Shown: piece by piece, positions 2,385 to 45,907 of the stretch | Numbering within the stretch: position 1 is the first letter of the stretch | Layout: every line of letters starts with the position of its first letter | Source: a virus | Reading direction: 5' to 3' (one strand) | IMG/VR virus record: IMGVR_UViG_3300028610_000388 | Coordinates: 1 to 49,848 of that record | DNA: 49,848 nt | Position numbers and translations under genes: made by a program | The notes under the pieces: generated by a model | Databases searched by the model: none | The model's input: only the letters and a program-made list of their open reading frames with translations | What the model was told of the DNA's origin: nothing

Positions 2385-2388
2385 GAAT

Positions 2389-7802: not shown

Positions 7803-8288
7803 ATGATACTTCCGAAACTTGGAAAACTGAGTGTGGCTCAGGCTTTAACGCCTACCACACAAGATAGTACGAATGTGATTTTGATGTCGGCGATTCCGTT
7901 TGCGGCATGGGCTGACGTATGGCTGACTATCGACACGAACGTCATTGCAACTGGTGACGGGTCCGATGTATTTGACTTCTCTTTGGTGGTTTCCCAGGAA
8001 GATACCTTGGACACCAACCTTGAAGTTGTGGCACAGCGCATCACCGGCATTGCCGACTCTCGCCTTGCGACTGCCGGCAATCGAATCATGGAAGTCAATC
8101 TAGGATCAATGCTCACGCGGTTGATGGACGCGGATTACGACTATCTTGGTCTGGTCCTGGGTGTGACTGGCGGGGCGACGTTGTCGATTGACGCTGTGAT
8201 TCAGTCATCGAGGCCGCAGACGATTCCGCGAAAACAGCCCGTAGTCTCGAACGTTGGCGTACCGACGCACGTTTCGGCGGGTTCGTAA
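7803..8288 (+). CDS. Probable capsid accessory/cement protein
   Basis: 161 aa, ATG with TTTTTAGGAG upstream. Beta-rich sequence with Asp/Thr-rich loops, no signal peptide and no Cys. Its place directly after the major capsid gene matches the capsid cement or decoration gene of several podoviruses (for example Bordetella phage BPP-1, where the cement gene neighbours the coat gene). That comparison rests on position and size; no motif proves it. Confidence 0.55.
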   Translation: MILPKLGKLSVAQALTPTTQDSTNVILMSAIPFAAWADVWLTIDTNVIATGDGSDVFDFSLVVSQEDTLDTNLEVVAQRITGIADSRLATAGNRIMEVNLGSMLTRLMDADYDYLGLVLGVTGGATLSIDAVIQSSRPQTIPRKQPVVSNVGVPTHVSAGS

Positions 8289-8324: not shown

Positions 8325-9968
8325 ATGAAACGCATAATTTGGCTGTTTCTGATTGTGGCGATGCTGGCCCCCAGCGCCGACGCTTTGAATTTTGGGGCTG
8401 AATATTACCGGACGCACAAGCAGTCGTTGCTTGCCGGAACTTACCAGCGTGACCCGCTCTGGTTGTTTATGAACGAGACCGAAGGGAACCTGGGAGGTAA
8501 CGTCGGCACCGGCAATGTCTGGTATGTCAACAGTAACGTGGCCAGCGAAGGCAACGGCAAGTCGTGGCTCGCTGCTAAAGACACGCTCAATGAGGTCATC
8601 GACCTGGCCGACGCCAACGATACCATCTACATTGCCCAAGGACACACCGAAGCAATGGGTGCGGCTGCGGACGAGGTCGATATCGACGTTGACGGACTGA
8701 CCATCGAACAGGTCGGGTCCAACATTATCAGTAACGGGTTCGATTATACCGGGGTGACTACGGGAGCATTTGCTATCAGCGGCGATAATATCACGCTGAT
8801 AAACATACGCTTCCACGCCAATATCCCCGATGTAATGGAAGCCATAGACCTTGAGGCTAATGCTACAGGCGTAAGGTTCTTAGGTTGTTTGTTCGATAGC
8901 GAGACTCCCGGCACGGATGAGTTTTTCAGATGCGTCAAGCAAGACGGTGCAAATGTAAACCAGCTTGAGGTTATAGGTTGTGAATTTCGCATGGGTGCCG
9001 GTGCCGCAGAATGCGCTATAGACCTTATCGACAGTGACTACGCCAAGATTGTCGGCAATCTCTTCGAGGGCGATTACTCGGTAGCTGATGTCAACAACGC
9101 CACGACGGCTTCGATTCACATTCTCATTACGGACAATGTGATTATTAACGGAACTGTCGGCGGGAATGCCGGGCTTAATACTGAACCGTGTATCGAGTTG
9201 AAGAGTGATACGTCCGGTGTGATTATCGGCAATTACTTGGTTTGCAACGAAGCTACTCCCGATGCAGCTATTGTCGGGGCCGATATGTGGGTTATGGACA
9301 ACTTCTACACCGAGACCGAGGGCGGTGTGTCCGCAGCCCCGATGTGGCTCACCACCGATACGTTGGACAACAAGATCGGTGTCGATGATTCGTCTAATCT
9401 GGGTACTACGTCAAGTGTCACAGCGGATTCGGATGGGTCCATATTAGAACGATTGGAACAGATCGACGTGGATACTTCGGCAACTGCAACTTCAGCCACG
9501 GCTGTAGCTTTGGTCGATCCGAACTTCGTCAGTTACGATGCGCCGAGAATCCTGGCCGACACAACCAGTGCAATGACGGCTGGTAACGGCTACGGTGCCG
9601 CCGACGATCCGGTCATTTTCACGGTTACAGGTGACATTCTGTGCAGGGCGAGTGCCACTTTCTCTACACAGGTAACATCCACATCGAATGACACGCTGGA
9701 ACTCGGGATCGCCGGACAGACGGCTATCTTGCTCGTTCAGGACGCAGTTGACGGTACGGCTTTCGACGTGGGCGATGTGTGGACGCTTACCATAGCGCCC
9801 GATGCAAACGGTAGTGTGTGGCTGCCCGACGACTGGATCATAATCTCGAACAGTGCGGATATCGTTTTGACGATTGACGACCACGATCTCACGGCGGGCG
9901 TTACGACGTTTTTCCTGCAATGGGTGCCGATGTCAGCCGATGCCGCCGTTGTGGGCGCAGCTCCGTAA
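8325..9968 (+). CDS. Exported parallel beta-helix protein (tail or surface)
   Basis: 547 aa. N-terminus MKRIIWLFLIVAMLAPSADA is a clear Sec signal peptide with Ala-X-Ala cleavage. Residues about 65-330 show short repeated turns with Ile/Val/Asn ladders (GLTIEQVG, NITLINIRF, VRFLGCLF, LEVIGCEF, AKIVGNLF, HILITDNVI, GVIIGNYL) typical of right-handed parallel beta-helices of the pectate-lyase-like superfamily. The C-terminal 200 residues are a separate beta-rich domain. In phages such folds are usually tailspikes or surface decorations. The signal peptide is unusual for a virion protein. Confidence 0.75.
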   Translation: MKRIIWLFLIVAMLAPSADALNFGAEYYRTHKQSLLAGTYQRDPLWLFMNETEGNLGGNVGTGNVWYVNSNVASEGNGKSWLAAKDTLNEVIDLADANDTIYIAQGHTEAMGAAADEVDIDVDGLTIEQVGSNIISNGFDYTGVTTGAFAISGDNITLINIRFHANIPDVMEAIDLEANATGVRFLGCLFDSETPGTDEFFRCVKQDGANVNQLEVIGCEFRMGAGAAECAIDLIDSDYAKIVGNLFEGDYSVADVNNATTASIHILITDNVIINGTVGGNAGLNTEPCIELKSDTSGVIIGNYLVCNEATPDAAIVGADMWVMDNFYTETEGGVSAAPMWLTTDTLDNKIGVDDSSNLGTTSSVTADSDGSILERLEQIDVDTSATATSATAVALVDPNFVSYDAPRILADTTSAMTAGNGYGAADDPVIFTVTGDILCRASATFSTQVTSTSNDTLELGIAGQTAILLVQDAVDGTAFDVGDVWTLTIAPDANGSVWLPDDWIIISNSADIVLTIDDHDLTAGVTTFFLQWVPMSADAAVVGAAP

Positions 9969-9976
9969 ACAATGGT

Positions 9977-10025
9977 CCTCCTTGGCTGGTCCCCGGCTTA
10001 GGGGTCGGGGGCCGGTTTAAGGAGG
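9977..10025 (+). promoter_or_regulatory. Large intergenic hairpin hiding a Shine-Dalgarno-like AAGGAGG
   Basis: CCTCCTT (9977-9983) pairs with AAGGAGG (10019-10025), and inside it GGTCCCCG (9988-9995) pairs with CGGGGGCC (10006-10013, one G-T). The next gene uses a second, unpaired AAGGAG at 10033-10038. No T-run follows, so it is not a simple terminator. It may act as an RNA stability or processing signal between virion genes. Confidence 0.5.
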
Positions 10026-10045
10026 CTTTAGTAAGGAGAATAGAT

Positions 10046-10687
10046 ATGAAGATCAAGACAATATTCATGCTGGTTGTGGTAGTTATGCTGCTCGGCTTGT
10101 CGAGCGCTCAACTCTCAGACCAGCCTCAGTATCCCGGTGCCCGGATGTCGGCAACTACCGTTCAGAATAGCGCCATCCATGTGGCGACGGTTACTGCGGA
10201 TGCCAGTGCATTGACTTCGACGACGAGTAGTTGGACGCATTGCAAAGCGTTGTTCACGCCTATTCCGACTGAGTGGGGTACGATATCTCTCAGCTTTTAC
10301 GGTTTTGGGGATGGTGACGGAGTGGGTAGCCCCAACAACGCTACGTATGCCTACAAGGTCTTTCTCTGTGACTTGTACGGTGGCGCTACGTTAATCACCA
10401 ACGGCACAGGCGCTATCGGCGCGCAACAGATGTCCCACACGCCGGACAACGGCACAGAACTGAATTCCGGGGCTGTCAGTGCGAACTACACCTATAGCGA
10501 TACCATCACCGAAGGAAGCGTCTACGCAGAAAGGGATGTGACGTACACAGACTTCGCCGCCGCCGACGGGCAGGCGATGATGCACATCAAACGCTATTCG
10601 GCCTATGGGGTTTATGTCGTGATATCTTCGATGACAGCGCAGCCGGTAACAAGCATTACTTGCACAATGCAGGGCTTTAACCAGTAG
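10046..10687 (+). CDS. Exported beta-rich protein in the tail region
   Basis: 213 aa from ATG 10046 with AAGGAG 7 nt upstream; the ORF runs back to 9920 but those codons would cross the beta-helix gene end and the hairpin. Signal peptide MKIKTIFMLVVVVMLLGLSS, cleavage near SSA-Q. The mature part is Thr/Ser/Gly-rich and beta-like (ITSITC-type end). It lies between the beta-helix protein and the tail adaptor. Family not recognised; probably an external tail component. Confidence 0.65.
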   Translation: MKIKTIFMLVVVVMLLGLSSAQLSDQPQYPGARMSATTVQNSAIHVATVTADASALTSTTSSWTHCKALFTPIPTEWGTISLSFYGFGDGDGVGSPNNATYAYKVFLCDLYGGATLITNGTGAIGAQQMSHTPDNGTELNSGAVSANYTYSDTITEGSVYAERDVTYTDFAAADGQAMMHIKRYSAYGVYVVISSMTAQPVTSITCTMQGFNQ

Positions 10688-10708
10688 TACGTCTAAAGGA
10701 GAAATCCC

Positions 10709-11473
10709 TTGACTGAAACAGAAGTAGCCAACATTGCTTTGGGCAAGATCGGTGGCGCTGGAGACCAGATCGACGGCGATGCTTTCATTGACGATATAGA
10801 TGCGGGAACCGATAAGGTGACTAATTGGATTAAGCTCCAATTCCCGGTGATTCGCAAACTCGTCATTACCGACTTGGCGATAGCCGGATGTCCGTTCCAG
10901 GAAGCGTCGAAATTCGCTGATTTGGGAGCGGAACTCAGTGCAGACGATGCGCCTGAGTTCGCGCAATGGGAGCATGTATTCAATCTGCCGGGCGATTATC
11001 TCTCGATGATTATGCAGTTCGATGAGGCGAACGTTCAACAGAGATACAAGCCGGAATTCCAACGCAAATTCGAGGTCAAGCCCAATAAGGCCGCTGACGG
11101 TCACGTATTAATGACCAACGATTACACGAACGTCGTTTCAGGCGGGAGTGCCAATAGCGCGTTTATCGAATACGCATTCGATCTTACCAATACCGGGATA
11201 TGGAGCATATCGCTGATCGACTGCGTATCGACCCGGCTGGCGGCGGAAATATCGCCGATAGTTCAGAAGCCCGAGCAGCGGATACCCATGCTGACGGAGT
11301 ATGACAGATTCACGGCCTTACAGGCGCAGGCTTTCAACAGAACTCAGAGCAATAACAATGCTCGTAAGATACCCGATTTTCGCGGTGGTAGGAATAGGAC
11401 CATACGAACTATCAGTGTCGGGTCGATGGCCAATCACGAATGCGGACAAAGAGGGACAACGGATTCATCATGA
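10709..11473 (+). CDS. Tail adaptor (tail tubular protein A-like)
   Basis: 254 aa, TTG start at 10709 with AAAGGAG 7 nt upstream. The opening TETEVANIALGKIGGAG and the following RKLVITDLAIAGCPFQ segment match the pattern of T7 gp11 / P22 gp4-like adaptor proteins, which ring the portal and attach the nozzle. It precedes the nozzle gene with an ATGA overlap, as in T7-like phages. No signal peptide, in contrast to its neighbours on both sides. Confidence 0.7.
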   Translation: MTETEVANIALGKIGGAGDQIDGDAFIDDIDAGTDKVTNWIKLQFPVIRKLVITDLAIAGCPFQEASKFADLGAELSADDAPEFAQWEHVFNLPGDYLSMIMQFDEANVQQRYKPEFQRKFEVKPNKAADGHVLMTNDYTNVVSGGSANSAFIEYAFDLTNTGIWSISLIDCVSTRLAAEISPIVQKPEQRIPMLTEYDRFTALQAQAFNRTQSNNNARKIPDFRGGRNRTIRTISVGSMANHECGQRGTTDSS

Positions 11474-14409
11474 AAAAATTATTGCTATTTGTATTGATAG
11501 TGACGGCAGCACATGGCGAACTCACCCTCCCCATTTCAAGTTTTAACACCGGGCAAGTGAGTCCTTTATTGGAAGCCCGGTTGGATTACGAGAAGTATTC
11601 CAGCGCATGCCGAATCCTTGAGAATATGCAGGTTAGCCCCCTTGGTCCGGCTATTCGCAGGCCGGGAACGAAATACATCGCCGAGGCCAAGACAGGGGCT
11701 CCTATCCTGATTTCGTTCGACTACTCGGTTGCAGATGTGTATCCCATAGAAGTCGGCGACGAATATTTGAGATTCTACCGTAACGGTGGACAGATACTCG
11801 ATAGCGGCAGTCCTTATGAGATTGCCACTGTGTTCCAGCCGAGTGAGCTTCGAGACATTCGACATGACCAGGTCGATAATATGATGTATATCGTGGACGG
11901 TAACGACCCGCCCCAGATATTGACTCGCAACGGCCATACGGATTGGACAATTGCCGATGTAGATATAACCGGAGGTCCGTTTAGTACCGAAAACGATACT
12001 GCCGGGACATTGGCGGCATCTGCGCTTTCGGGTTCGATTACGATTACGGCGGCGAGCGGTGCTACGCCCTTTGACGATCCCGGCCATGTCGGTTCTTTAT
12101 GGCGAATTAACCACCGAAGACCTCCCCTTTCGGTTTCCGGCTCTTTTGCGGGCGACGGTTCGTCTGTTGGCGAACTCAATGTCGGCGGCGCGTGGGATGT
12201 AGTGACTCACGGTACGTGGACAGGGAGTATGACCGTCGAGAAAAGTAACGATTTGGGTGTGTCGTGGGAAGCCACAGCGGCATTTAAGGCATCTGTGAAT
12301 GATGACAATCTCTTGTATTCCGATACGGAAACCGAAATAGGGTGGAGGTATAGGATTACAATGTCGAATCATTCGGCTGGTACGGCAACCTATACATTAA
12401 CTCGCCATGAATATACTCATACTGGAATCGTGGAAATAACGGCAGTCGCCAGTTCGACTTCGGCTACAGCGACGGTTATCGAACGCCTGGGATCTACAGA
12501 CGCGACTACTTTGTGGTCCGAGGGGGCTTGGAGTGATTTTAGGGGATGGCCGAAAACAGTGGCGTTCCATCAGCAGAGATTAGTATTCGCAGGATCGAGA
12601 AGTTATCCTATCTTAGTGTGGTTCAGTGAAACCAACGGCTATACGAACTTCCTGGAAGGTACTGAGGATACAGATCCTTTTACGATTGGATTGCAAGGTC
12701 AAAATACGATTCAATGGCTTGTCTCAGATGACTATTTATTGATTGGAACGTCCGGCTCGACGGGTAGGTACGGCGCTCAGGGCGAGGCCGTAACACCTAC
12801 CTCCCCTGCTTATCAAGAACAGAGTCCTCACGGCAGCGCATCTCTTCAAGCAGTACGCGCAACGGATACTATGTTGTACGCCGAGCGAGGAGCGGTGAAG
12901 ATCAGGGATTTCGGATATAGTCTTCAATATGACAGGTATGTCTCTCCCGATCTGACTTTGCTTGCGGGTGAGATAAACAAGTCCGGGATCGTGGATATGG
13001 ATTTTCAATTGAGGCCCGGCCCCGTACTCTGGTGCATTCTCGATAACGGTGACATTACTACTATGACCTACCAGAAGGACCAGTCGGTCATTGCATGGTC
13101 CGAGCAGAATACGGACGGTCTGTATACGAGCTTGACCATAATTCCCGATCAGACCGGCGAAGATCAGATATGGGTTACGGTCGGACGAGCAATACAACCG
13201 TTGGTCTTATTGGAGTTTGAGGGCGAGGATGGAGATACCTTTACATCCGATTCGACCCGCAGACATACTTCGATAACGTTTAGGGGCGATGCCCAGATAG
13301 ATACTGCTCAAGCCAAATTCGGTAACTCGTCACTTTTACTTGCGAACGCGGGAGATGCTGTTTACCTTGCCGATTCAGCCGATTGGGACGTTGTTGCTGA
13401 TACGGATGATTACACAGTCGATTTGTATGCTCGTCATACGTCACATGCCACCACGGAAAGTTATATTAGTCAGGCGGAATTATCCCCCACAACGTCATGG
13501 ACTTTGTATCATAAGCATGGTACGGGTCTGACTTTTAGAGTCGTAGATGCCGGTTCGGAAGTTCTAATACTAGCCGGCGGCGAAATCACAGATTCGGCCT
13601 GGCACCACATCGCACTGTGTAAGGTCGGTACTGAGTACGGTCTATATCTGGACGGAACACAAGTCGCCTATGTGGACGATGCGTCTACAATAGATGCTGA
13701 TTCTTTTTTGTTTGTCGGTAACGATCAAAGCTTTCTTCTTCAATTCCTGGGTCATTTGGACGAGGTTCAGATCCACAACGATAATCTGTATACTGCTGCG
13801 CCGGACGTGGGTTTGACCGATACGATCACACCGTCACAAGGAACTGCTTTTACGACGTATATCGAGCAGTTTCAACCCTACGACTGGGGTGATAATCAAA
13901 ACGACTGTTGGTTCGTGGACTCGGGATTGAGTTATTTCGGAGATCCTACCGATACCTTTTCAGGATTAGATCATCTCGATAATCGAACAGTTTCGGTTTA
14001 TGCCGATGGCGTGATACTGTCCGATGAGGTTGTTGTCGGCGGTGAAGTTACAATCGACACCGAAGCTACACAAGTGGTTATCGGCCTTGCCTACACGTCA
14101 AGACTAGAGATAATGCCGATTAACGTCGGCCCTGCCAATAGGGCGAAAGGCAAGATGGTTTCAGCGGTCTACTTTGATTTATTTGAAACCGGGCACATGA
14201 GCTACGGCTCGACGTCTATCAGTGATCTGACTGCTGTGAACTTCGGAGGTACGGGACTCGACCCCCGGTACGAACTCTACACCAGTGACGTCACATACAA
14301 GAAGTTCTCGTTTCCCTATGGTAGTTTGAAGAAACAAACTGTCTACATAGAAAGCGACAGGCCAATGCCTTTAACGATCCGAGCAATTCTTCCGGAGCTA
14401 AGTCAATGA
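11470..14409 (+). CDS. Tail nozzle (tail tubular protein B-like) with signal peptide and LamG-like insertion
   Basis: 979 aa from ATG 11470 (ATGA overlap). The N-terminal 16 residues, MKKLLLFVLIVTAAHG, form a short signal peptide. The family's usual start follows at once (SSFNTGQVSPLLEARLDYEK ... RRPGTKYI), and the C-terminus has the family's DCWFVDSGL, FSGLDHLDNRTV, VVVGGEVTI and VYFDLFETG blocks. About residues 578-775 interrupt the core with a LamG/concanavalin-like domain (LEFEGEDGD ... WHHIALCKVGTEYGLYLDG ... GHLDEVQIHND). The nozzle forms the distal tail tube in T7-like phages. Confidence 0.85.
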   Translation: MKKLLLFVLIVTAAHGELTLPISSFNTGQVSPLLEARLDYEKYSSACRILENMQVSPLGPAIRRPGTKYIAEAKTGAPILISFDYSVADVYPIEVGDEYLRFYRNGGQILDSGSPYEIATVFQPSELRDIRHDQVDNMMYIVDGNDPPQILTRNGHTDWTIADVDITGGPFSTENDTAGTLAASALSGSITITAASGATPFDDPGHVGSLWRINHRRPPLSVSGSFAGDGSSVGELNVGGAWDVVTHGTWTGSMTVEKSNDLGVSWEATAAFKASVNDDNLLYSDTETEIGWRYRITMSNHSAGTATYTLTRHEYTHTGIVEITAVASSTSATATVIERLGSTDATTLWSEGAWSDFRGWPKTVAFHQQRLVFAGSRSYPILVWFSETNGYTNFLEGTEDTDPFTIGLQGQNTIQWLVSDDYLLIGTSGSTGRYGAQGEAVTPTSPAYQEQSPHGSASLQAVRATDTMLYAERGAVKIRDFGYSLQYDRYVSPDLTLLAGEINKSGIVDMDFQLRPGPVLWCILDNGDITTMTYQKDQSVIAWSEQNTDGLYTSLTIIPDQTGEDQIWVTVGRAIQPLVLLEFEGEDGDTFTSDSTRRHTSITFRGDAQIDTAQAKFGNSSLLLANAGDAVYLADSADWDVVADTDDYTVDLYARHTSHATTESYISQAELSPTTSWTLYHKHGTGLTFRVVDAGSEVLILAGGEITDSAWHHIALCKVGTEYGLYLDGTQVAYVDDASTIDADSFLFVGNDQSFLLQFLGHLDEVQIHNDNLYTAAPDVGLTDTITPSQGTAFTTYIEQFQPYDWGDNQNDCWFVDSGLSYFGDPTDTFSGLDHLDNRTVSVYADGVILSDEVVVGGEVTIDTEATQVVIGLAYTSRLEIMPINVGPANRAKGKMVSAVYFDLFETGHMSYGSTSISDLTAVNFGGTGLDPRYELYTSDVTYKKFSFPYGSLKKQTVYIESDRPMPLTIRAILPELSQ

Positions 14410-14801
14410 CTTCACGACCAATGACAGTCGCCGACTTCATCTATGTGATGGATCTCAATCCGTGCATCTACCCGAAATACGACGCATTGGGGCCGGACCA
14501 AAAGAGGATGGCGGCACATTTGAATATCTGTACGGGGACGGCGGAGACCTTCCTGGACGATGACGGGCGGATACTTGGTGTCGGTGGGATACGATTCGTG
14601 GGAGTTGGGGAGGCGTGGTGTATCACGCTACCCGAAAAGAGAACGCCGATTATGTTGCGCACCGTGGCCCAGAACTTCGAGCAAGTACGAGACGAGAATC
14701 ATCTCTGGCGAGTGTTTGCCGAGAGTAAGATTTCAGAGAACTTCTTGAAACATTTGAAGTTCCAGAAGAAAGACGGAATTCATATTTGGACCCGACAATG
14801 A
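14406..14801 (+). CDS. Internal protein A-like, GNAT-fold
   Basis: 131 aa, ATGA overlap with the nozzle gene. The middle (DDDGRILGVGGIRFVGVGEAWCITLPE) reads as the beta strands of a GNAT-type fold, as in T7 gp13-like internal protein A. Its place between nozzle and the next internal protein matches T7 gene order. An acetyltransferase activity cannot be claimed from this sequence. Confidence 0.65.
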   Translation: MTSRPMTVADFIYVMDLNPCIYPKYDALGPDQKRMAAHLNICTGTAETFLDDDGRILGVGGIRFVGVGEAWCITLPEKRTPIMLRTVAQNFEQVRDENHLWRVFAESKISENFLKHLKFQKKDGIHIWTRQ

Positions 14802-14831
14802 ATAAGGTGACTTTAGATACGGGGAGGCCGA

Positions 14832-15359
14832 ATGGATACCAGCGATGACCCGATAACAGCAGTAGCGGTTGGGGCAAGCGTGTTCGGTACATTGTCCTCT
14901 GCCGCAAACCAGCGCCGACAGGGCCGTGAGGCTCAGAAGCTCGCCAATCAGCGGGCGGCTGTTGACTTGGCCGACGCCGAAGCGGTGGAAAAGCAGACTC
15001 GGGAAGCGGCAAGGCTGGAACTCGAAAGAGGTCGTAAGCTTCTAAAGAGTCAGAAAGCTGGCTTCGCAGCGGGCAATGTCAGAGTAGACGTCGGTTCTCC
15101 GTTGGTTGTTGCTGCGCAGACGAGGGCGGATATTGCGAGAGACGTAGGGTACATCTTCGAGAGGGGCACGACACAGGCTTCGAGGTTCAGACAAAGCGCC
15201 AAATTCGAGAGGAAGTACGGCAAGACTCTCAGGACGCAAGCTAAATGGGCCGCTGTATCGACACTCTTCCAGGGATTCGGTTCGTTAGGATTTAGGGCCA
15301 AGGACGCAGGTTTCTTCAAGAAGAAAGAGACAGTTTTAGGTGAGGGCTTGAACCCGTGA
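14832..15359 (+). CDS. Internal virion/ejection protein B-like
   Basis: 175 aa, ATG with GGGGAGG upstream. Short hydrophobic N-terminal segment (about residues 8-24), then a long Ala/Arg/Glu helix (residues 25-75) and the segment GFAAGNVRVDVGSPLVVAAQ, which recurs in podovirus internal proteins of the T7 gp14 type. Such proteins leave the head during ejection and form a pore in the outer membrane. Ends in a GTGA overlap. Confidence 0.7.
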   Translation: MDTSDDPITAVAVGASVFGTLSSAANQRRQGREAQKLANQRAAVDLADAEAVEKQTREAARLELERGRKLLKSQKAGFAAGNVRVDVGSPLVVAAQTRADIARDVGYIFERGTTQASRFRQSAKFERKYGKTLRTQAKWAAVSTLFQGFGSLGFRAKDAGFFKKKETVLGEGLNP

Positions 15360-17257
15360 CACTGATACCAGTATTCCAAAGACAGCAACTTCCGCTCGGC
15401 CAGTCGGGTAGAGTCAAACCTTCGTTTCAGTTGGCGGACCGCAGCGGCCAGATAGCTCTTGGCAGTCAAGTTGCAGAGTTTGGCGGTGCGATGCTCGATA
15501 GAATCACGCGAGCCAAAGCCAATACCGAATTCTATAGATTTCGCGGTGACTTAACGAAGATCGAAGCGGATGTGGATAGGTGGATTACGGAGAATCCCGA
15601 CGCCACAGTCGAGCAGTTTACGACACAACAGAACAATGCGCTCGCACTCGCCACAAAAGCGGGGGATCGAGCAAGCACCGGCCTGGCGAGAGACAGGATA
15701 AGCGACTTCCTGGAAATGAACGACGATATCTTTCGACAGAGAACACAGTTTACTTATGAGTCAATAGAATCGAAGAGGCAATTCAATTCATTGGCGAAAG
15801 AGCGAGAAATTGCCTTACAGACAGGGGATTATCCGAGATTGGAAAGGGCCATAAACGATGCGCGTGGCAATCTTTACAGCGACGAGGAAGCCGACTTGCA
15901 GCTTGAACTCGATACTATCCGGTTCGATAAATTAGCGGCGGACAGGGTGAAGCAGCAAGCAGAATCCGACGAAACGGTCAGGGGTAACGCTCTGTTCGAG
16001 GCTGCCGCGCAGTTGCCGGAACTCGAAGGTCGCAAGCTTATCAATCAAGCTGACGACATAACAACTTCAAATCGTAATGCGCAAAAGGCTAGGTTAAGCG
16101 AGCATCATTCCATAAGACGCTCAGTGAATCAGAAGGAAGTCAATACCATGCTGGTCCCAGGAGCAACTGTCGAATCTCTCCTGGCTGCTCGTGAAAATTT
16201 GAAGTTATTGGATATGGAGCCTGATGAACGCTCCGCAGCCGACGCACAACTTCTCTCTCGTATCCGTGAAATAGATCAGGGCGTGGATGTATTCACTCCG
16301 CAAGCTACTAAACGCAGAATGGAAACAGAGGCCCATGAAGTAGCTTTGGGAACAGAGCGAGATAAAGAAGATTTCAAATCCAGGCTCCATAAGCTATCTG
16401 CCGACGGCGAGATTAGTGGTTCATTGCGAGACGAATGGATCGGCGACCTCGAACAGGATTACAAGTCACTGGAATCGCAGCTTGAGAGCGATGCCCTAAA
16501 AGAAGGTTCCGTTATTGTTCAGGACGCTTTTGGTGGCTTTGCCAGTCTGGTTGAACTCAAGCAAGCATTAGAACAAGCTGGCACTGATGAGAAGAGACAA
16601 GAAGCAATCATACTGGAATTGGAAGATAAAAATGAATTACAAATCAGCCTACAAAGGCGCTACGATGCGTCTATCCGAAAAATAGTACGAGAACAAGATT
16701 TAGGGCCGAAGGAATTTAATGCAGCCAAGCAATTATCGTTGATTCACTATCGAGAACTCGCTCGAACTGGTGTAAGGGCGATGGAGGCCGAGAGGGCTTT
16801 GTTTGAGTCTGGTGTAGATTTGACTGATACCGAACGGGAACGTGTAGCCAGTCTTATGGTAGATCGCAACATAACCACTAGTGAAGCAATCGAGTTAGTC
16901 GAGACTACCAATGATATCAGTCAATTCAAATTCGCCCCGCCGCGAAAGATTGGAATTGGAGAGACGTTAAAACGGACACTCGGCAATTTGGGGTCGGGGG
17001 CAGCACCCCCGTTCGGCGGTGGCGCACCAGCGGCCAAGCCAGTCAGGAAAGGCCCGATCAAGATCACCGGCTTTCAAAACGGTGCTGAGTCCATAGTCAG
17101 TAAGACAGTAGGTGGTAAGCAAGTAGAGGGTATCAAAACAAAGGATGGCCGGGAAATCTTCAAAGGCGATGAATTCATTCTGGCCGGTAAAGTCTGGCGT
17201 TACGACGGCGACGGTAAGGCAACACAACTCCGCAACGCCCCGGTGAGAAAGAGATAA
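15356..17257 (+). CDS. Internal virion/ejection protein C-like, coiled coil
   Basis: 633 aa, GTG start overlapping the previous stop. Long charged helical protein (about residues 45-520) with no Cys cluster or membrane segment, then a Pro/Gly-rich linker (about 545-570) and a small C-terminal beta domain (about 570-630). Size and position match T7 gp15, the periplasmic tunnel component of the DNA ejection apparatus. Role inferred from context. Confidence 0.65.
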   Translation: MTLIPVFQRQQLPLGQSGRVKPSFQLADRSGQIALGSQVAEFGGAMLDRITRAKANTEFYRFRGDLTKIEADVDRWITENPDATVEQFTTQQNNALALATKAGDRASTGLARDRISDFLEMNDDIFRQRTQFTYESIESKRQFNSLAKEREIALQTGDYPRLERAINDARGNLYSDEEADLQLELDTIRFDKLAADRVKQQAESDETVRGNALFEAAAQLPELEGRKLINQADDITTSNRNAQKARLSEHHSIRRSVNQKEVNTMLVPGATVESLLAARENLKLLDMEPDERSAADAQLLSRIREIDQGVDVFTPQATKRRMETEAHEVALGTERDKEDFKSRLHKLSADGEISGSLRDEWIGDLEQDYKSLESQLESDALKEGSVIVQDAFGGFASLVELKQALEQAGTDEKRQEAIILELEDKNELQISLQRRYDASIRKIVREQDLGPKEFNAAKQLSLIHYRELARTGVRAMEAERALFESGVDLTDTERERVASLMVDRNITTSEAIELVETTNDISQFKFAPPRKIGIGETLKRTLGNLGSGAAPPFGGGAPAAKPVRKGPIKITGFQNGAESIVSKTVGGKQVEGIKTKDGREIFKGDEFILAGKVWRYDGDGKATQLRNAPVRKR

Positions 17258-20200
17258 TGGCAAAGCAGGTTTCCATATTCGATATCGAGGCAAAGGACGG
17301 TGAACAGGTCTCTGTGTTCGATATAGAAGAGCCTACGCCTGCGCCGTCTTTCACGCTACCCGACCAGGCTCTCGATGTTGAAACAATTGTGGACAACTCC
17401 GATAAGAACTGGGATATCTCACAATCTTTGGAGATGCACCCGAGCGTTACAGAGCGTTGGTTGAATATCTTGGGCACTCCCACAACGCTCGGTGTGCCCT
17501 TGCCGCCGCCTATCAAGCCGAAAGACCCTGTCGATCAACCAGAAGGTGAACCTACCTTCTCGGGCCAACTCATCGGCGGCACGATTGAAATGGCGAAGCA
17601 TCTGGCCGATTTGCCGCGCAGGACGCTTATGCTGATTGGCCAGATGGAACATAGACCTTTCATGGGCACAGAAGTCATTCCTGGTGCGACTCCAGAGGAA
17701 ATCCGCACTGATCCTTTGTATCGAGCGGCGGCTGTAGTATCTGAAAGAGCGTCTGTCGGCACGGATTTCCTCTTGAATACACATCCTGAATGGAAAGCCA
17801 ACCCGCCCGATAGTTTCAAGGACCTCATCACGAGTCCGCGGAAAATCGTCCAAGGGGTCTTGCGGGCGGTCCCATTGCTTGCAGGCGCAGGGTTTGCAGT
17901 AGCGGCAGGCCAGCCGGGGGCTGCATTAACCATGATGTTCGCAGCCGAGAGCAACGCCGCGAAAGAAGGATATCTTGCCAAGGGCGCAACAGAAGATAGT
18001 GCTGAATCTGCGTCGAACGTATACGGCTTTGTAGCGACTGGGATAGAATTTCTGAGCGTAGGACATGGATTGAAATTGCTCGGCAATCTTCGGACTGTCA
18101 TTCTGAACCGCTCTGCCCAGAAATTAGCCATTGCCTCGGTAGGCAAGTCCATAACAAAGCAAATGGCGACGACGGCTGTTTTGCAATCAGTTGAAGAGGT
18201 AGGCCAAGGCCGATGGCAGGACATAGTTGGCTTGACAATGCTAGACCAGCCAATTGAAGGGGGTTGGCGGGGTATGTTGGACCGCAGTGCCCAGGAAGCG
18301 ACTATTGCAACAGCATTGACCCTGGCAACCGGGGGATTAGGTATCACCGCCGGTAAGGTAGGCCAGATCACAGAAGCCCACACAAACAAGTTCAATAAGG
18401 CTTTACAGGCCAAACAAGAGGATATTCAGACCGCCCTTGTGAACGGCGACGCCCAACAGGCGGATAAACTCATCAACGAAGCCGTCCAGGAAGCCACTGG
18501 AATTGATCCCACAAAGCCTTTACCAAAGGCTGAGATCGAGTTCACAGCCGAAGAAGAGGCTGCCCAAGCTGAACTAGAGGCTGGCATTGAGGCCCCTGGT
18601 GAGCCCGCCAAGCCATCCGAAGCTAAACCCCCGCCGTTGGCCGGTGAGAAGGAGATCGCGGCACAGGTCAAGGCAGAGCCCACGCCAGCGGTGCGTAAGA
18701 TTCGTTCTGCTGCATTTCAGTTGCCAGATAGGTCGGTTATAGAAGGCACGAGCCATCCAACAATAGTATTGCAATCAAAAGATAAGGGGATAGAGATACC
18801 AGAAACTGCAATTGCTGGATTTGTAACGGCGGAAGGAAAGTTTGTTACCAGAGAAGAAGCTGCTGATATTGTTGGGCGCAAAACTCCATTAGAAGCACGA
18901 GAATTGGGGCCATTTGGGCGAGGCCCAGAACGGATCGTAGTCCAGCCGCCCATTGAGGAGCCTACGCCAGCGGTACGGAAAGAGGAAATACCAACCCCCG
19001 AGCAGGCCTTCGACCAGGTCAAGACCCAAATCAGCCAGTCTATCGGAGCGGCAAGGGCCGGATTTGAGTCTTTCGACCCCGCAATGAAGCGAGCCCAGAA
19101 GCGGGCCGTCGAGGGGGATGAGAACATATTCCTCGTCCAACGGGCCGGTGGTAAGTGGGTAGCCCAAGATAAAATCCCGGCAACCGGGCATTATACTATC
19201 GTCAGACCGGATGGTACTGCGGAGTTCATCAAGCAGGCTTCTCTAACAGCCGAGGAGTCCGAGGACTTCGCCGAAAAGCTCAAAGGCCCGAAGATCACCG
19301 ACAAGGCCGAAGCCATCAAGACGAAGTTCATCGAGCGGCTGGATAACGCCGAAGCGTTAAAGAAGGAACTCAAAGCGTTCATCAATAGTTCCCTACCGGC
19401 TTCGCCGGAAAAGATACAAGCCCTGGGGATCCTGGACAAGATCAGCGCCAAGAAATGGGACAAGATCAACGTCAAGAATTTCGGTGAGGCCCTGGCTTTT
19501 GTGGACTTCGCGGCTGAGAGTCTGCGTAAGCAACAAGCCGTTACAGATTACAAAAAGACACTCAAAGACCTCAAGAAGAAGTTCGGCACCAAGAAGACAT
19601 TGCTCGGCGAGATGAGACCGGAGTTCGCCGAGAAGGTATCCGGTTTGATCGACGGGATTGACGTCGCAAAGCTCGGGAGCCGGAAAGAATCTGATCTCAA
19701 GGGTCTCCAGCATAAGATTCAAGGACTGGCGACTGCACTATCACAGGAAAATCTGATTCAAGTTGACCCGGACTTGCCCGATGCTTCTGTCCGGGAACTC
19801 CTGAAGATACCTGATGCCCGGTTGGCGCAGCTCGCCAGATTGGGCAAGACCCCGCTGACTGATATGACCGCTGGCGAAATAGAGTCAATCAATGACGAAC
19901 TGGCGAGGCTCGTCGGCCAGAACAACCTCAAGAACAAACTCATCACCGCAAGGGGCGTCGAAGAACTCAGTACTGCTCTGGAAGATACTCAGGAAGAGAT
20001 GATCCCGAGCAAAGCTGTTCGTAAGGGCAAGGAACCAATCCAGGCCGGGCCGGTGGGTCGGCTCGTCAAACTCGCTGGGTCATCGGTGGCTACGTCAATA
20101 CAATCAACTACCGGGAGTCTCCAGAACACAACCAGCAAATTCCTGATGTGGGATATCATGGACGGTCTCGGTAAGCGGTACGACATGCAGCGCCGGACCA

Positions 20201-22122
20201 AAGAATTCACACAGAACCGAATGAACGAGAAGGGAATCAGCTTTGAAGATGTGAAGACTTGGCGCAAGACAACCCACACATTTGAAAAGGTCACTAACCG
20301 GCACACCGGCAAGCCGATCACTCTGAACGAAGACCAGATACTTTCAATCTTGATGGATGTCCGTAATCCCGATAACCGGGCAGCGGCGCAGCGGGGATAC
20401 AACTGGACTGAAAAGACTTTGGCGGGCGTAAAGAAGCAGTTCGATACCGGGTCGCTGACTTTACAGCAACTCGGGGATATCTTGAAGCCCATGACGGCGA
20501 AGCATCGGGCAATGGCTGACATCGCAAATGAAGTCCTCGACACCAAGACCAAGCCCGAACTCAGTGATACTTCAATGAAACTCTTCAATCACGATATGTT
20601 CCGGGTGGATAATTATTGGGCGATGAACCGCGTACTGCCTTTGAGTCTTGGCGGAGCCCGAGCCGATATCCAGGCGTTGTCGAATATGGGCATGAGTAAA
20701 GAGCGCATCGGTGGTTCGCAGCCTTTGAAGCTGATTCCGTTCTTCAACAAACTCCACAACTCAATCGAAGAATCTTCGGCATACGCACACATGATGGTTC
20801 CGTTATTCAACGCCAAGTCAATCATGGCGAGTAAGGATTGGCAGGATTCTATGGTTGCCGCCGGACGTCAAGACGAGATGAAGCAGATCATTGCCAAGTT
20901 CGAGGTCCTTGAGAAGTCGGCACACTCTCAAGACGCTCTGGCACAGTGGAGCGGGGCATTGACAAGGGGATATGGTCGGTCGGTTTTGGCTTTGAACGTC
21001 GGTAGTATCGCGGCACAAGTAACTTCAGGACCGTTACTGATAGCAGTCGATCCCGTCCAGTACGTCAAGCACCCATTGCTGCCGAGTTCCAAGACTCTTC
21101 AGGATGAAATCAATGCTCACAACGGTGTATTGTGGAAGAGACGCAACTCGGGTCAGAGCACAAAGGACATCGGCGATATCCGGGCGACTCATGCCGTTAA
21201 TGAATTCTTCTTCGATAAGAGCGGTATTCTGAACACTCCTATGAAGCTCCAGGCCGCTACCGACAACATGGTCATTCAAAAGGTATGGCGGATGGCCAAA
21301 GGTCATGTCGCCAGCAAGACGCAACTCACGCCATCATCAGGCCAACGGTATTGGGATGCCGTTAATCGCCGAACATACGAACTCATGCTCACTCAACCGA
21401 ACTGGGAGCCGTTCCTGCGGAGCCAGTTGTTGACATCGCCGGACGTATTGACTCGGGGACTCATGGCATTCCGATCACCTGTGGAGGCTTTACACAACAC
21501 ACTCTTGCGAGCCGATGCCGACGTTGCTAATGAACTACCCGGCGCTCGCAAAAGACAATTGCTGGCCTACGGAGCGGCTGCGACTTCCCTGATAGCCTAT
21601 AGGGCCGTTAAGACGGCCTACATCGAAGGCAGGAAAGCATTGCCAAAACTAGCTGGTAAAGACGACGAGAAGGATAAGGGCGACGGTATCCTGTCAGACG
21701 CCGGTGAGAAGTTGTTGTATGATTTCTTTAGCGTCAGCCCCATAGGCAGGACCGCCGGGGTAGTGATCGTGAATCGCATCGTCGCTGGTGTGAAGAAAGA
21801 ACGTCCCGGCCGAGGGGTGATCGAACGCATCCCGATTGCTTCGGTCGCCGAGACAACAGAGAGACTTGCAAGTAATATCGGAAATATGATCGGGCGTAAA
21901 GCAGAAGGCGATCCCAAATGGGATGAGAAGATGCCCGATACTATTGAGCTTGCAGTGAGACTTGCCGGACACCTTGCAGGGTTGCCGGTAAATGCCCCAC
22001 TGTCGGTTGCAAAGCCGGTACTGGAACCGGAGAAGAATAAACTCCAAGACAAGCTCGAAGATATCAACGTCTTTGAAATCAATAAGAAGATCGAACAAGG
22101 ACTGAAAGGTGTACGAAGATGA
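17257..22122 (+). CDS. Giant internal/ejection protein (gp16-like position)
   Basis: 1621 aa; ATG shares its A with the previous TAA. The N-terminus carries two similar boxes (VSIFDIE, VSVFDIE). A hydrophobic stretch lies near residues 200-235. EPTPAVRK occurs near 473 and 568 in Pro-rich linkers, followed by long charged helices (620-950) and a large mixed domain. No transglycosylase or peptidase motif was visible, unlike T7 gp16. By position and size it should be the inner-membrane-spanning part of the ejection machinery. A large antisense ORF within it is a reading-frame shadow. Confidence 0.65.
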   Translation: MAKQVSIFDIEAKDGEQVSVFDIEEPTPAPSFTLPDQALDVETIVDNSDKNWDISQSLEMHPSVTERWLNILGTPTTLGVPLPPPIKPKDPVDQPEGEPTFSGQLIGGTIEMAKHLADLPRRTLMLIGQMEHRPFMGTEVIPGATPEEIRTDPLYRAAAVVSERASVGTDFLLNTHPEWKANPPDSFKDLITSPRKIVQGVLRAVPLLAGAGFAVAAGQPGAALTMMFAAESNAAKEGYLAKGATEDSAESASNVYGFVATGIEFLSVGHGLKLLGNLRTVILNRSAQKLAIASVGKSITKQMATTAVLQSVEEVGQGRWQDIVGLTMLDQPIEGGWRGMLDRSAQEATIATALTLATGGLGITAGKVGQITEAHTNKFNKALQAKQEDIQTALVNGDAQQADKLINEAVQEATGIDPTKPLPKAEIEFTAEEEAAQAELEAGIEAPGEPAKPSEAKPPPLAGEKEIAAQVKAEPTPAVRKIRSAAFQLPDRSVIEGTSHPTIVLQSKDKGIEIPETAIAGFVTAEGKFVTREEAADIVGRKTPLEARELGPFGRGPERIVVQPPIEEPTPAVRKEEIPTPEQAFDQVKTQISQSIGAARAGFESFDPAMKRAQKRAVEGDENIFLVQRAGGKWVAQDKIPATGHYTIVRPDGTAEFIKQASLTAEESEDFAEKLKGPKITDKAEAIKTKFIERLDNAEALKKELKAFINSSLPASPEKIQALGILDKISAKKWDKINVKNFGEALAFVDFAAESLRKQQAVTDYKKTLKDLKKKFGTKKTLLGEMRPEFAEKVSGLIDGIDVAKLGSRKESDLKGLQHKIQGLATALSQENLIQVDPDLPDASVRELLKIPDARLAQLARLGKTPLTDMTAGEIESINDELARLVGQNNLKNKLITARGVEELSTALEDTQEEMIPSKAVRKGKEPIQAGPVGRLVKLAGSSVATSIQSTTGSLQNTTSKFLMWDIMDGLGKRYDMQRRTKEFTQNRMNEKGISFEDVKTWRKTTHTFEKVTNRHTGKPITLNEDQILSILMDVRNPDNRAAAQRGYNWTEKTLAGVKKQFDTGSLTLQQLGDILKPMTAKHRAMADIANEVLDTKTKPELSDTSMKLFNHDMFRVDNYWAMNRVLPLSLGGARADIQALSNMGMSKERIGGSQPLKLIPFFNKLHNSIEESSAYAHMMVPLFNAKSIMASKDWQDSMVAAGRQDEMKQIIAKFEVLEKSAHSQDALAQWSGALTRGYGRSVLALNVGSIAAQVTSGPLLIAVDPVQYVKHPLLPSSKTLQDEINAHNGVLWKRRNSGQSTKDIGDIRATHAVNEFFFDKSGILNTPMKLQAATDNMVIQKVWRMAKGHVASKTQLTPSSGQRYWDAVNRRTYELMLTQPNWEPFLRSQLLTSPDVLTRGLMAFRSPVEALHNTLLRADADVANELPGARKRQLLAYGAAATSLIAYRAVKTAYIEGRKALPKLAGKDDEKDKGDGILSDAGEKLLYDFFSVSPIGRTAGVVIVNRIVAGVKKERPGRGVIERIPIASVAETTERLASNIGNMIGRKAEGDPKWDEKMPDTIELAVRLAGHLAGLPVNAPLSVAKPVLEPEKNKLQDKLEDINVFEINKKIEQGLKGVRR

Positions 22123-25100
22123 AACGTGCAATAATTCTATCGCTGTTACTCTGTACTTCAATTTTCGCCACCGTTCCTCAAGGCGAGAGTACGAGAGAAT
22201 ACTTCGTCTGCGATAATGTGATAACAAATTTCACCTTCACAATGCCGTCGAATTCGTCGGATGACATTTTCGTATATCGGCACACCATAGCGACCGGAGC
22301 CGAACTCCTACTGACTATCAGCACACAGTACACGATAGCGCCAACATCGAGCGACTACCTCAACGGCGGCGTGGTCACTACGATTGCCACTTATGACAGC
22401 ACGTTTCAAATAGTGATTGTGCGCAAGATCAAACAAAGTCAGGAGCGAACGTCGGCTGTCATTAGTGTCAATACGGTTGTCCTGGGATTGGATAAGGTAA
22501 CTCGCCAAGTTCAGGACTTATGGGACAGGTGGGAGCGAACAGTCCGTTTGCCGGAAAGTTTCAGCGACTCGTTCGATATGGAATTACCTTTTATCGAAGA
22601 GGGATATTTACGAATAAATTCCTCGGATGAGATCGAGATAGACACAGGCGTATTGGGTCTAGCCTGGAGCGATCCCGTGGATTCGGATATCATACCTAAT
22701 CTCGACAACGTCTATGACATCGGCAGTGCGGCGCTCTCATTCAAAGATATTTATTGGGATGGTATCGGATATGGCGATGTGACCGGGGATTTGACGGGTA
22801 ATGCTGATACGGCAACGACAGCTTCGGGTGTCGTTCCTGACTCTGTGGCTTTAACAACTGACACTACCGGGAATTACGTGGCTTCAATAACCGATGGACT
22901 GGCGATTGATGGCGGTGACGGAGGCTCTGAGGGCGCTGCAATTACGCTGGCCTTCGATCCGACGGAGCTACTTGGAAGCAGAACGTGGGGCGACGGCTCT
23001 ACTGACACGATTGTATGGACGTGGGACCGAGCTACGGGTACGGACCCAACACTGACATTCGGCAATGCACTGATAACGGCTGGCCAGGGTTTTACGGTGA
23101 CTGGCGGACTTACAGCCTCGACCTACATGGACATAACCCCAACTGCAAGCCAGGCTCATTCAGAGGGCCGGATGTATTACGATTCCGACGTCGATACGTT
23201 TGTCATGTATAATGCAGAAGCGGACATTGCCTTGAACGTGGGTGAAGAGAATTGGGTATTTGTGCGCAACGGTACGGGTAGTACGATCACAGACGGCCAA
23301 GTGGTTTACTTCTCAGGAGCAACCGGAGGCAGGCCCAACATCATATTGGCCAAAGCTGATGCTGCTGCAACTTCACTGGTGGCTGGATTAGCAACTCACG
23401 ATATAGAAAATAATAGCGATGGTTACGTGACCGTGTTTGGCGTAGTGCGCGGTGCTGTCACTACCACAGGACTGTCCGGGGGCGACCCTCTGTATCTATC
23501 GGCTGCGACTGCCGGGGCATTGACTACGACACCACCGACGCCTCCTAATTTCATAGTTATGGTCGCAAAAGTTATGACCGTCAGTGGGAACGGTGATGTT
23601 TTCGTTTGTGCCGACCATATAGATTACAGCGATGGTGTGGTTTTCAATTCATTCAACACAGTCGGCGACATAACAAGCGGCGACAACTTCATCGCCAGCC
23701 TCGGCGCAGAAGGAACGCCTAGTTACACCTTTACGGGCGATACGGATACGGGTATGTGGTCCCCTACCGGCGATACCCTCGCATGGAGCCTCGGCGGGTC
23801 TGAGGCTATGCGGTTGGATGGGACTGGGTTGGGGATTGGGGTTAGTCCTGGGGTAAAATTGGATGTGTATGGTACTAGTGCCATAATGAGAGTACGGAGA
23901 CAGAACAATAATTTTCCCCCAGGTGTGATATTCCACAGAGAGGCGGCGGGTTCTGGTGATATTTCTGTGGGCTATTCTCTTGGGAATTTGAAATATGTAG
24001 GAAATACGGCAGCGTCCTCTGCGCGAGAGTTTGCTTCTCTAGATTTTATCGCTACTAACGTCGGCGATGGGACGGAGGCAGGATATTTTTCTTTCTTAAA
24101 TAAAGATATGGGGAATATACTGACAGTCCTTACTTCTAGTTTTGTTGGTTTTGGAGGCGAAGCCACCCCCGAAACCCTAACCGAATGGACAAGTGCTGTC
24201 CCTTATCTCACCCTCCACAACAGCACTGAGGAGAACGCAGACGGCGGGCGAGAGAGTCGCCTAATCTTTAAGGGGGAGCAGGACGGCACAGAGGAGACTA
24301 CACTTGCCATGATGGAAGTTGCCCATGACGGTGCGGCTGATGACGAGAAAGGTTATATTGAATTCTTTGTGAATGATGGTGCTGATGGAGATACACCGAC
24401 ATCTGCATTGAAGATTGATAGTACCCTCTCGGCGGCATTTGCAGGTGGCGGCTCTTTCGCCGATGTAGTCTCTGGTGTTACACCCGTGGCAAGTGCTGAC
24501 TTTGCGACTAAGGAGTATGTCGATACGGCAATCGGCTTCCAGTTCGATTATTTCTTTGGGGATACGGCGTCGGATATCGGAGGAATTTACTATGCGATGA
24601 CGGATCAGGACTTGGGTGGGGGAGAATCCACCTTATCCACTGCGGGACTTACGCAGGCGGATGACCAGCCCCTTGTGAATTTTGCCACATTGTCCGGAGA
24701 ACCGGGCGTGCAGGCATTGTCAGCCGGCGTGTATGACGTACACTTTCATGCAGAGAGAACTGGGGGGAGCCGTGCCACGGTACTCTATGCCGCGTTATAT
24801 AAATATGAGACTGACACGACCGAGACTCTGTTGGGCACAACCGAGGTATCTGGCTTGGTTACTTCTAAGGAAGAGTTCGATCTGCACATGAGCATTGCCT
24901 CCGAGATTACGATTGATGCAACGGACAGGCTCATCATCAAGTTCTTCGCTAATTGCGATACAGGTGCAAATACCACGATTGCTTTGTACCAGGAAGGTGA
25001 TACTGTATCACACTTCACATTCTCCACAACGTCGAACATTTTGAATTCCCTTTACTTGCGGGTGGATGGGGCTACAACCTTGGCCGGTGCGTGGGACATG

Positions 25101-25640
25101 GGCTCCCAAATCCTGACAAACGTGAATATCGACTCCGGGGTCATTACCGGGATCACGGACCTTGCCATAGCCGACGGTGGGACGGGACAGAGTACGGCCC
25201 AGGCTGCGATTGACGCCTTGACAGCAGTGTCGGGGGCCACCAACGAATACGTTCTGACAAAGGACACAGGCACCGGCAACGCGAAATGGAAAGTAACGGG
25301 CTCCGCCAATATTGCTGGCGATCTACCAACTATTAACGATTCTGACGCTAATGCGATGCTCAAAGATCATGCGTATTTAACCCAAACATCGGGCTTCGTT
25401 ACAGCTTGGAGCGATGCAAGTGCGAATACCCTATCCGGGTATGTTCATAATACTGATGATCCTGCTGGGGCGGGTGTCCTTGTGATAAAAAACAAAGTCG
25501 ATAATCTTAGGCCGGGCATTTCAATGTTCGTTGGTGATGGCCTGTATTTTGAAATAGCACTAACCACAGGAACCCCCATAATAATATGGACCCCGCTCGT
25601 CAATGGCGGCGCGGCACCGATAGATCAAGAGGCACCATAG
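22119..25640 (+). CDS. Tail fibre with T7 gp17-type head and signal peptide
   Basis: 1173 aa, ATGA overlap with the previous gene. Residues 1-18 (MKRAIILSLLLCTSIFAT) form a signal peptide. About 22-145 match the T7 tail-fibre N-terminal domain that docks on the tail (REYFVCDNVITNFTFTMP ... QIVIVRKI). The following shaft has repeated NADTAT and LTGN-type trimeric-fibre turns, a VFVRNGTGSTITDG domain, a SEAMRLDGTGLGIG box near 565 and a C-terminal beta domain. DNA at about 23815-24170 has different codon use, suggesting domain exchange. Confidence 0.8.
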   Translation: MKRAIILSLLLCTSIFATVPQGESTREYFVCDNVITNFTFTMPSNSSDDIFVYRHTIATGAELLLTISTQYTIAPTSSDYLNGGVVTTIATYDSTFQIVIVRKIKQSQERTSAVISVNTVVLGLDKVTRQVQDLWDRWERTVRLPESFSDSFDMELPFIEEGYLRINSSDEIEIDTGVLGLAWSDPVDSDIIPNLDNVYDIGSAALSFKDIYWDGIGYGDVTGDLTGNADTATTASGVVPDSVALTTDTTGNYVASITDGLAIDGGDGGSEGAAITLAFDPTELLGSRTWGDGSTDTIVWTWDRATGTDPTLTFGNALITAGQGFTVTGGLTASTYMDITPTASQAHSEGRMYYDSDVDTFVMYNAEADIALNVGEENWVFVRNGTGSTITDGQVVYFSGATGGRPNIILAKADAAATSLVAGLATHDIENNSDGYVTVFGVVRGAVTTTGLSGGDPLYLSAATAGALTTTPPTPPNFIVMVAKVMTVSGNGDVFVCADHIDYSDGVVFNSFNTVGDITSGDNFIASLGAEGTPSYTFTGDTDTGMWSPTGDTLAWSLGGSEAMRLDGTGLGIGVSPGVKLDVYGTSAIMRVRRQNNNFPPGVIFHREAAGSGDISVGYSLGNLKYVGNTAASSAREFASLDFIATNVGDGTEAGYFSFLNKDMGNILTVLTSSFVGFGGEATPETLTEWTSAVPYLTLHNSTEENADGGRESRLIFKGEQDGTEETTLAMMEVAHDGAADDEKGYIEFFVNDGADGDTPTSALKIDSTLSAAFAGGGSFADVVSGVTPVASADFATKEYVDTAIGFQFDYFFGDTASDIGGIYYAMTDQDLGGGESTLSTAGLTQADDQPLVNFATLSGEPGVQALSAGVYDVHFHAERTGGSRATVLYAALYKYETDTTETLLGTTEVSGLVTSKEEFDLHMSIASEITIDATDRLIIKFFANCDTGANTTIALYQEGDTVSHFTFSTTSNILNSLYLRVDGATTLAGAWDMGSQILTNVNIDSGVITGITDLAIADGGTGQSTAQAAIDALTAVSGATNEYVLTKDTGTGNAKWKVTGSANIAGDLPTINDSDANAMLKDHAYLTQTSGFVTAWSDASANTLSGYVHNTDDPAGAGVLVIKNKVDNLRPGISMFVGDGLYFEIALTTGTPIIIWTPLVNGGAAPIDQEAP
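23820..23841 (+). other. G-quadruplex motif inside the fibre gene
   Basis: Four G-runs of 3-4 (23820-23822, 23826-23828, 23831-23834, 23838-23841) are separated by 3, 2 and 3 nt, with another GGGG at 23850-23853. This meets the usual G4 rule on the coding strand. It encodes the DGTGLGIGV turn and lies at the edge of a compositionally different patch. Confidence 0.6.
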
Positions 25641-26006: not shown

Positions 26007-26414
26007 ATGAGAAGCAAAGCAATCCTAATCACAGCACTGTGCCTCGTGGCCTGCCTAATTGGCACAGCCTACGCGGCGACAACCATCACGTTCAACATCA
26101 GTGCGGTTTATGCAATCGAGTTGTTGGAAGCGTTCGGAGCCCAGGATGACGCTCACGTTCAGATTAAGATCCGGGGTAGCCAGAACGCCGCGGACCCGAA
26201 CGTACCGGACTACTCGGCGACTGTGAGTTTTAGGACGCCCATCAGAGACCCTAACGATAGCAACGTCGTCTACGCAAAGAAGCGGATCGCCCTGATCGTG
26301 GATGCTTTCAAATGCGCCCAGGAGAACAAGCTGAATGAAGATATAAGAGCAGAATATCACGCCAACAGGCCGCTATTTGACCCGAACGTGCCCAGCGGTA
26401 TCGACGAAGAGTAG
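26007..26414 (+). CDS. Exported hypothetical protein
   Basis: 135 aa, AAAGGAG upstream. Signal peptide MRSKAILITALCLVACLIGT with cleavage near TAYA-A; a Cys within the hydrophobic core gives a weak lipobox (LVAC). The mature part has Asp-Pro-Asn turns (ADPNVPDYS, RDPNDSNVVY, FDPNVPSG). Function unknown. Confidence 0.6.
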   Translation: MRSKAILITALCLVACLIGTAYAATTITFNISAVYAIELLEAFGAQDDAHVQIKIRGSQNAADPNVPDYSATVSFRTPIRDPNDSNVVYAKKRIALIVDAFKCAQENKLNEDIRAEYHANRPLFDPNVPSGIDEE

Positions 26415-45901: not shown

Positions 45902-45907
45902 AGAATA

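Follow-up and report, generated by a model that had tools for sequence, protein, structure and literature searches.

The stretch of DNA analysed here, called the window throughout, is the whole 49,848-nucleotide virus record IMGVR_UViG_3300028610_000388. Its ends mark it as a complete virus record, the first and last 144 bases being identical, and a near-identical twin is present in IMG/VR (L002/L015). The phage's gene order and its profile matches put it nearest to podoviruses of the BPP-1/HTVC010P type. Profile searches assign the portal to PF12236 (E 7.5e-33), the nozzle to phrog_376 (E 8e-161) and the adjoining adaptor to phrog_394 (E 1.5e-11), with further matches for the capsid protein (GP7) and a gp14-like protein (phrog_418). 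The genes of the virion region, together with the predicted signal peptides discussed below, are collected in Table 1. Farther along lies a DNA-modification cluster (43191–48306) encoding a C5 methylase, an N4/N6 methylase (44638) and, on the minus strand at 46453–48306, a DUF4942 protein with methyltransferase-like matches. Two 413-aa frames at 43186–44432, on the same strand and offset by 5 bases, overlap almost completely. Profiles of phage DNA methyltransferases (phrog_1008, phrog_363) match both, and the arrangement reflects either a frameshift or an unusual overlap. The one tRNA gene identified in the window is a tRNA-Ile (anticodon TAT, 35225–35297).

Table 1. Genes of the virion region and predicted signal peptides in the window. 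A slash marks the predicted cleavage point; fractions give the signal-bearing members of each family in the clade described in the text.
Feature	Position	Strand	Basis or remark
Portal (PF12236), signal-less	2365..4164	+	0/10 signal-bearing in clade
92-aa signal-bearing protein	5312..5590	+	between portal and scaffold genes
Scaffold, signal-less	5789..6550	+	0/16 signal-bearing in clade
Major capsid protein (GP7), signal-less	6703..7767	+	0/18 signal-bearing in clade
161-aa protein, cement position, signal-less	7803..8288	+	0/16 signal-bearing in clade
Beta-helix protein, 547 aa, spike position between cement and adaptor genes	8325..9968	+	ORF, structure model
Predicted signal peptide of beta-helix protein, 20 aa, MKRIIWLFLIVAMLAPSADA/LNFGA	8325..8384	+	scorer
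213-aa beta-rich protein, spike position	10046..10687	+	ORF
Predicted signal peptide of 213-aa protein, 21 aa, MKIKTIFMLVVVVMLLGLSSA/QLSDQ	10046..10108	+	scorer
Adaptor (phrog_394), signal-less	10709..11473	+	0/17 signal-bearing in clade
Tail nozzle with inserted concanavalin-like lectin domain	11470..14409	+	phrog_376, E 8e-161; PDB relative 8ck1
Predicted nozzle signal peptide, 16 aa, core 11 residues, MKKLLLFVLIVTAAHG/ELTLP	11470..11517	+	scorer
gp14-like internal protein (phrog_418), signal-less	14832..15359	+	profile, scorer
Ejection-type protein, signal-less	15356..17257	+	0/11 signal-bearing in clade
Large ejection-type protein, signal-less	17257..22122	+	0/11 signal-bearing in clade
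Tail fibre; its gp17-like N-terminal domain is conserved among relatives	22119..25640	+	ORF, profile
Predicted fibre signal peptide, 17 aa, MKRAIILSLLLCTSIFA/TVPQG	22119..22169	+	scorer
135-aa signal-bearing protein, downstream of fibre	26007..26414	+	homologous to signal-bearing L199:7768
168-aa signal-bearing protein, downstream of fibre	27456..27962	+	scorer

Signal peptides were called with a home-made, rule-based scorer (not SignalP) built on a basic n-region, an uncharged hydrophobic core and small residues at -3 and -1. The original prediction placed signals on the beta-helix protein, the 213-aa protein, the nozzle and the fibre, and all four were confirmed as scorer-positive open reading frames with plausible starts. 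The signal it had noted on the 92-aa protein, with predicted cleavage MKRGLLIGFTVAISLCLLMGAAS/NAPKY, was likewise called by the scorer, and the gene at 25656, downstream of the fibre, encodes a hydrophobic N-terminus as well. By this scorer the outer virion proteins display the pattern of Sec/signal peptidase I substrates; inspection of the window nozzle and fibre signals found no lipobox with Cys at +1. Homologues of the beta-helix protein in 14 other contigs also bear a signal, and the 213-aa protein has a 40% identical homologue in L109. AlphaFold models of the nozzle and of the beta-helix protein (mean pLDDT 55 each) are too weak to place the N-termini. Foldseek matches the latter, low-confidence model to PL6 lyases, pectin methylesterases and tailspikes, and the beta-helix class is its sole usable output. 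In relatives, the portal–scaffold gap, the slot of the 92-aa protein, holds signal- or lipoprotein-like genes. Four small lipoprotein-like genes (signal ending in ...GC or ...G/C; G001:C18 39159 in L147, G516:C12 8057, L157:1012 and L199:5924), three of them near the portal gene in this same slot, could encode an exclusion lipoprotein or a spanin part.

The head and internal proteins were predicted to lack signals, and this too is what the scorer returns for TerL (read from its likely start), portal, scaffold, major capsid protein, the 161-aa protein, adaptor, gp14-like protein and both ejection proteins. Across the clade of relatives defined below, the portal, scaffold, capsid, cement, adaptor and ejection families yield no signal-bearing member among 99 (ejection proteins, 0/22), and 2 of 14 gp14-like proteins score as signal-bearing, though for one this depends on a doubtful start. 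Applied to 145 spurious ORFs of the window, the scorer gave 2 false calls. It was positive for 42 of 1938 genes (2.2%) in 161 relative loci with a signal-less nozzle, an upper bound on the background since some of those signals are real. In the 17 loci with a nozzle signal, 70 of 269 genes (26%) are signal-bearing; with the nozzles left out, the enrichment over the 161 loci has p = 2.6e-27, p-values here being nominal because the loci and contigs are related rather than independent.

Could the calls be artefacts, reflecting wrong starts or hydrophobic N-termini that arose by chance and do not serve export? False calls do occur, as with the hydrophobic extension on the L016 TerL, read from a probably wrong start. 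However, the background rate is only ~1.4–2.2%, and the signal-containing starts of the window nozzle and fibre either overlap the stop of the preceding gene or have a ribosome site ahead of them. For nozzles in general the ribosome site is often unclear, and the start is judged from overlap with, or closeness to, the upstream gene. Further evidence against artefact, which we regard as very improbable, comes from the preservation of the signals as signals through deep divergence and from the joint absence of nozzle and fibre signals in certain relatives, both taken up below.

That the family domain follows directly upon the signal, as proposed from the window, is borne out for the nozzle by alignments of its relatives and for the fibre by a profile of its N-terminal domain. 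Eight nozzles of other phages and most of 217 nozzle relatives start at the family domain, to which the window nozzle adds ~16 residues. The fibre profile retrieved ~50 homologues. Those without a signal start M/TVS, M/TIS or similar, which is the predicted cleavage point of those with one; there, cleavage would mostly leave TVP, TVS or TMS, and in the window the site is FA/TVP. Predicted cleavage thus restores the usual fibre N-terminus. No conserved internal start codon that would give a signal-less nozzle was found among the relatives, nor one bypassing the signal in the window nozzle itself.

These features bear on the suggestion, raised with the original prediction, that the hydrophobic helices anchor the tail. 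Uncleaved signal anchors might tether nozzle and fibre to the inner membrane; heads would dock there, and the tail would be completed at this site. Such an arrangement would explain membrane-linked assembly while avoiding a soluble periplasmic pool, and the spike-position signals of L186, L187 and L189 do have long cores that could anchor. In the nozzle and fibre signals, though, the hydrophobic stretch after the last Lys or Arg spans 9–18 residues, mostly 9–17, which is short for a stable membrane anchor; small residues occupy -3 and -1; and the predicted cleavage yields the N-terminus of the signal-less homologues. We therefore consider anchoring unlikely.

The distribution of the signal was followed through nozzle relatives. 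Since a scan of the viral collection with the window nozzle as a single sequence gave no match, relatives were reached with nozzle profiles, one of which, built from three signal-bearing nozzles, drew 80 contigs, mostly new. Among ~140 dereplicated relatives, signal-bearing nozzles fall into 18 divergent lineages (17 at <85% identity in the nozzle tree, plus G785), whose signals differ in sequence yet stay canonical. They cluster on the tree with two state changes, or three when G516 and G785 are added, and 0 of 500 shuffles gave a count as low for either version. Within this clade, signals are found on 15/16 spike-position proteins, 6/7 proteins of the 213-aa type, 6/7 fibres and 16/19 nozzles, that is, on the products of genes lying between cement and adaptor as well as on fibres and nozzles. 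The members without a signal are calls that are truncated, split or mis-started; only in the fibre and nozzle of G516 is the lack genuine. The signal on outer parts is a clade trait, real far beyond the window. Two arrangements in relatives may be mentioned here: L216 has two tandem nozzle-like starts (10000–14180), each with a hydrophobic signal-like segment ahead of it, and in L154 (13752–15962) a gene for a 737-aa signal-bearing protein is inserted between the gp14-like and ejection genes.

Nozzle and fibre signals go together. Over the 47 contigs in which nozzle and fibre were both scorable, both signals are present in 6, neither in 40, the nozzle signal alone in 1 and the fibre signal alone in none (Fisher p = 6.5e-7, nominal as above); in the one nozzle-only contig the fibre has an atypical signal, MRKIKMIMLASMMCVLFQGC..., that is scorer-negative. 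Relatives that start after the hydrophobic segment, which the original prediction counted as evidence against itself, do exist outside the clade and once inside it, yet there the nozzle and fibre signals are absent as a pair, pointing to a shared compartment rather than to artefact. The inside case, G516:C12, is a complete circular phage genome nested in the clade with support 99/95. Its nozzle and fibre are 54% and 49% identical to those of L109, and both lack the signal, the fibre starting behind an AAGGAG ribosome site; its spike-position protein retains one. In the L029/L173/L176 group the nozzles are signal-less, as are the fibres where scored (L029 and L173), and this absence may be a loss. 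To judge by G516 and this group, this tail type can do without export. Nozzle and fibre seem to move between compartments jointly, which is what one would expect of binding partners.

Spike-position proteins, by their predicted signals, seem to be exported more widely than nozzle and fibre. L224 and vir555 (BK063671; L021) resemble the window in bearing signals on spike- or fibre-region proteins, but differ from it in that their nozzle and gp17-like fibre are signal-less. In vir555, whose recorded host is archaeal (Methanomicrobiales), several signal-bearing proteins are encoded beside the fibre. Such genomes, with G516, would suit an explanation in which the exported copies work outside the virion, coating the infected cell, degrading surface polymer, blocking superinfection or serving as decoys, while virions are built from a minor unexported pool; the resemblance of the beta-helix model to polysaccharide lyases and tailspikes fits as well. 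On the other hand, nearly all contigs encode the nozzle, a structural part, just once, and neither a signal-less version nor a conserved internal start was found; what it could do at the cell surface is difficult to imagine. A non-virion role is possible for the spike-position proteins and unlikely for the nozzle, and as an account of the whole set we find it improbable.

An added N-terminus, its restriction to outer parts and its deep conservation together make export the natural reading. The predicted signals strongly imply that the outer parts are exported and cleaved. To this extent the original prediction stands; that the mature outer proteins are in the virion, and where and when assembly takes place, including its proposed location at the membrane or in the periplasm, are things we infer. 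Composition of the mature nozzle was considered as a further mark of export and set aside: the signal-bearing group has less Lys and Arg, yet its adaptor and capsid shift alike, so the measure does not discriminate. Cysteine content of the mature nozzle does not differ between signal-bearing and signal-less groups.

We think it fairly likely, judging from sequence, that the outer virion parts are Sec-exported and cleaved, and that they join cytoplasm-made heads outside the cytoplasm. The spike-position beta-helix and 213-aa proteins, the nozzle and the fibre would be made with cleavable Sec signal peptides, pass the host inner membrane and be trimmed by host signal peptidase I, nozzle and fibres maturing in the periplasm before joining. 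Heads, comprising capsid, portal, adaptor, ejection proteins and DNA, would form in the cytoplasm without signals. Because the adaptor is signal-less but should contact nozzle and fibres, the two pools would have to meet during or after opening of the inner membrane, most simply at its opening at the end of infection. Adaptor-capped, filled heads would then gain nozzle and fibres, and the tail would be completed outside the cytoplasm. The model needs a route by which signal-less, adaptor-bearing heads meet the tail parts. The analysis revealed no such route, and the proteins scanned included no recognisable holin or endolysin.

As to the host, the contig of L109, which encodes a signal-bearing nozzle, is circular, 44.7 kb long and part of a Phycisphaerae MAG, and a search of 161 genomes of that MAG's order added G516 and G785 as further close relatives. 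The G785 nozzle shares its 7.4-kb contig with a sensor kinase gene. At the DNA level this gene matches one in a relative with 90% identity, and its family is present in 76 of 159 genomes of the order; a transposase-like fragment between nozzle and kinase, seen by eye rather than by profile, makes a misjoin possible. This nozzle gene (L268, G785:C389, 3240–7091) has no neighbouring adaptor or other recognised virion genes, and may be a prophage remnant, a domesticated gene or a misjoin. On this circumstantial evidence, with comparison genomes drawn from Planctomycetota, the host is probably a Phycisphaerae (Planctomycetota) bacterium. In a sample of 392 Planctomycetota genomes, the L109 nozzle is the only one with a signal, the other nozzles found having none; phages of that phylum do not, then, bear the trait in general. 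Planctomycetes have an enlarged periplasm (PMC10945688), which would suit the export model. A deep-sea Planctomycetes phage of 21.9 kb is released without lysis, in a report that does not mention signal peptides (PMC10945688). We place slightly short of an even chance the more specific proposal that in this clade, probably of Planctomycetota phages, Sec-exported and trimmed nozzles, fibres and spikes meet DNA-filled, adaptor-capped heads in the (enlarged) periplasm.

If correct, the model means that virion assembly can be divided between two compartments, and it raises the questions of how filled heads are sealed without a nozzle and how heads and nozzle meet. The signals offer a sequence handle for testing phage biology where the host has an unusual cell plan, as in Planctomycetota, and secretome predictions in such hosts may contain virion proteins. 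No description of signal peptides on nozzles, on fibres or on virion proteins of Planctomycetes phages turned up in the literature searched, though an earlier one may exist.

Among known phages, the best matches of the window are of the BPP-1/HTVC type. BPP-1, BcepC6B, Carin1 and HTVC010P-type phages share its gene order and have homologous portal, capsid, adaptor, nozzle (27–38% identical) and gp14-like proteins. In contrast to those of the window, the nozzle and gp17-like fibre of BPP-1/HTVC010P-type phages have no signal peptide and begin directly with the mature domain. The window is thus a variant within a group whose nozzle and fibre usually lack an export signal. The PDB 'Tail Nozzle' 8ck1 is homologous to the window nozzle over the core (E 4e-130), to which the window adds the 16-aa signal and the lectin-like insert. 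As far as the profile matches and the best-matching relatives tell, the window shares with T7-like phages (Autographiviridae) only the gp14-type protein and the general connector order. In well-studied tailed phages, heads and tails are assembled in the cytoplasm, and we know of no two-compartment assembly pathway for Caudoviricetes. Filamentous phages export their coat proteins through Sec, route them through the inner membrane by signal sequences and assemble by extrusion through the membrane. The window resembles them in having virion proteins with signal sequences, but it belongs to a dsDNA tailed phage in which only the outer parts carry them.
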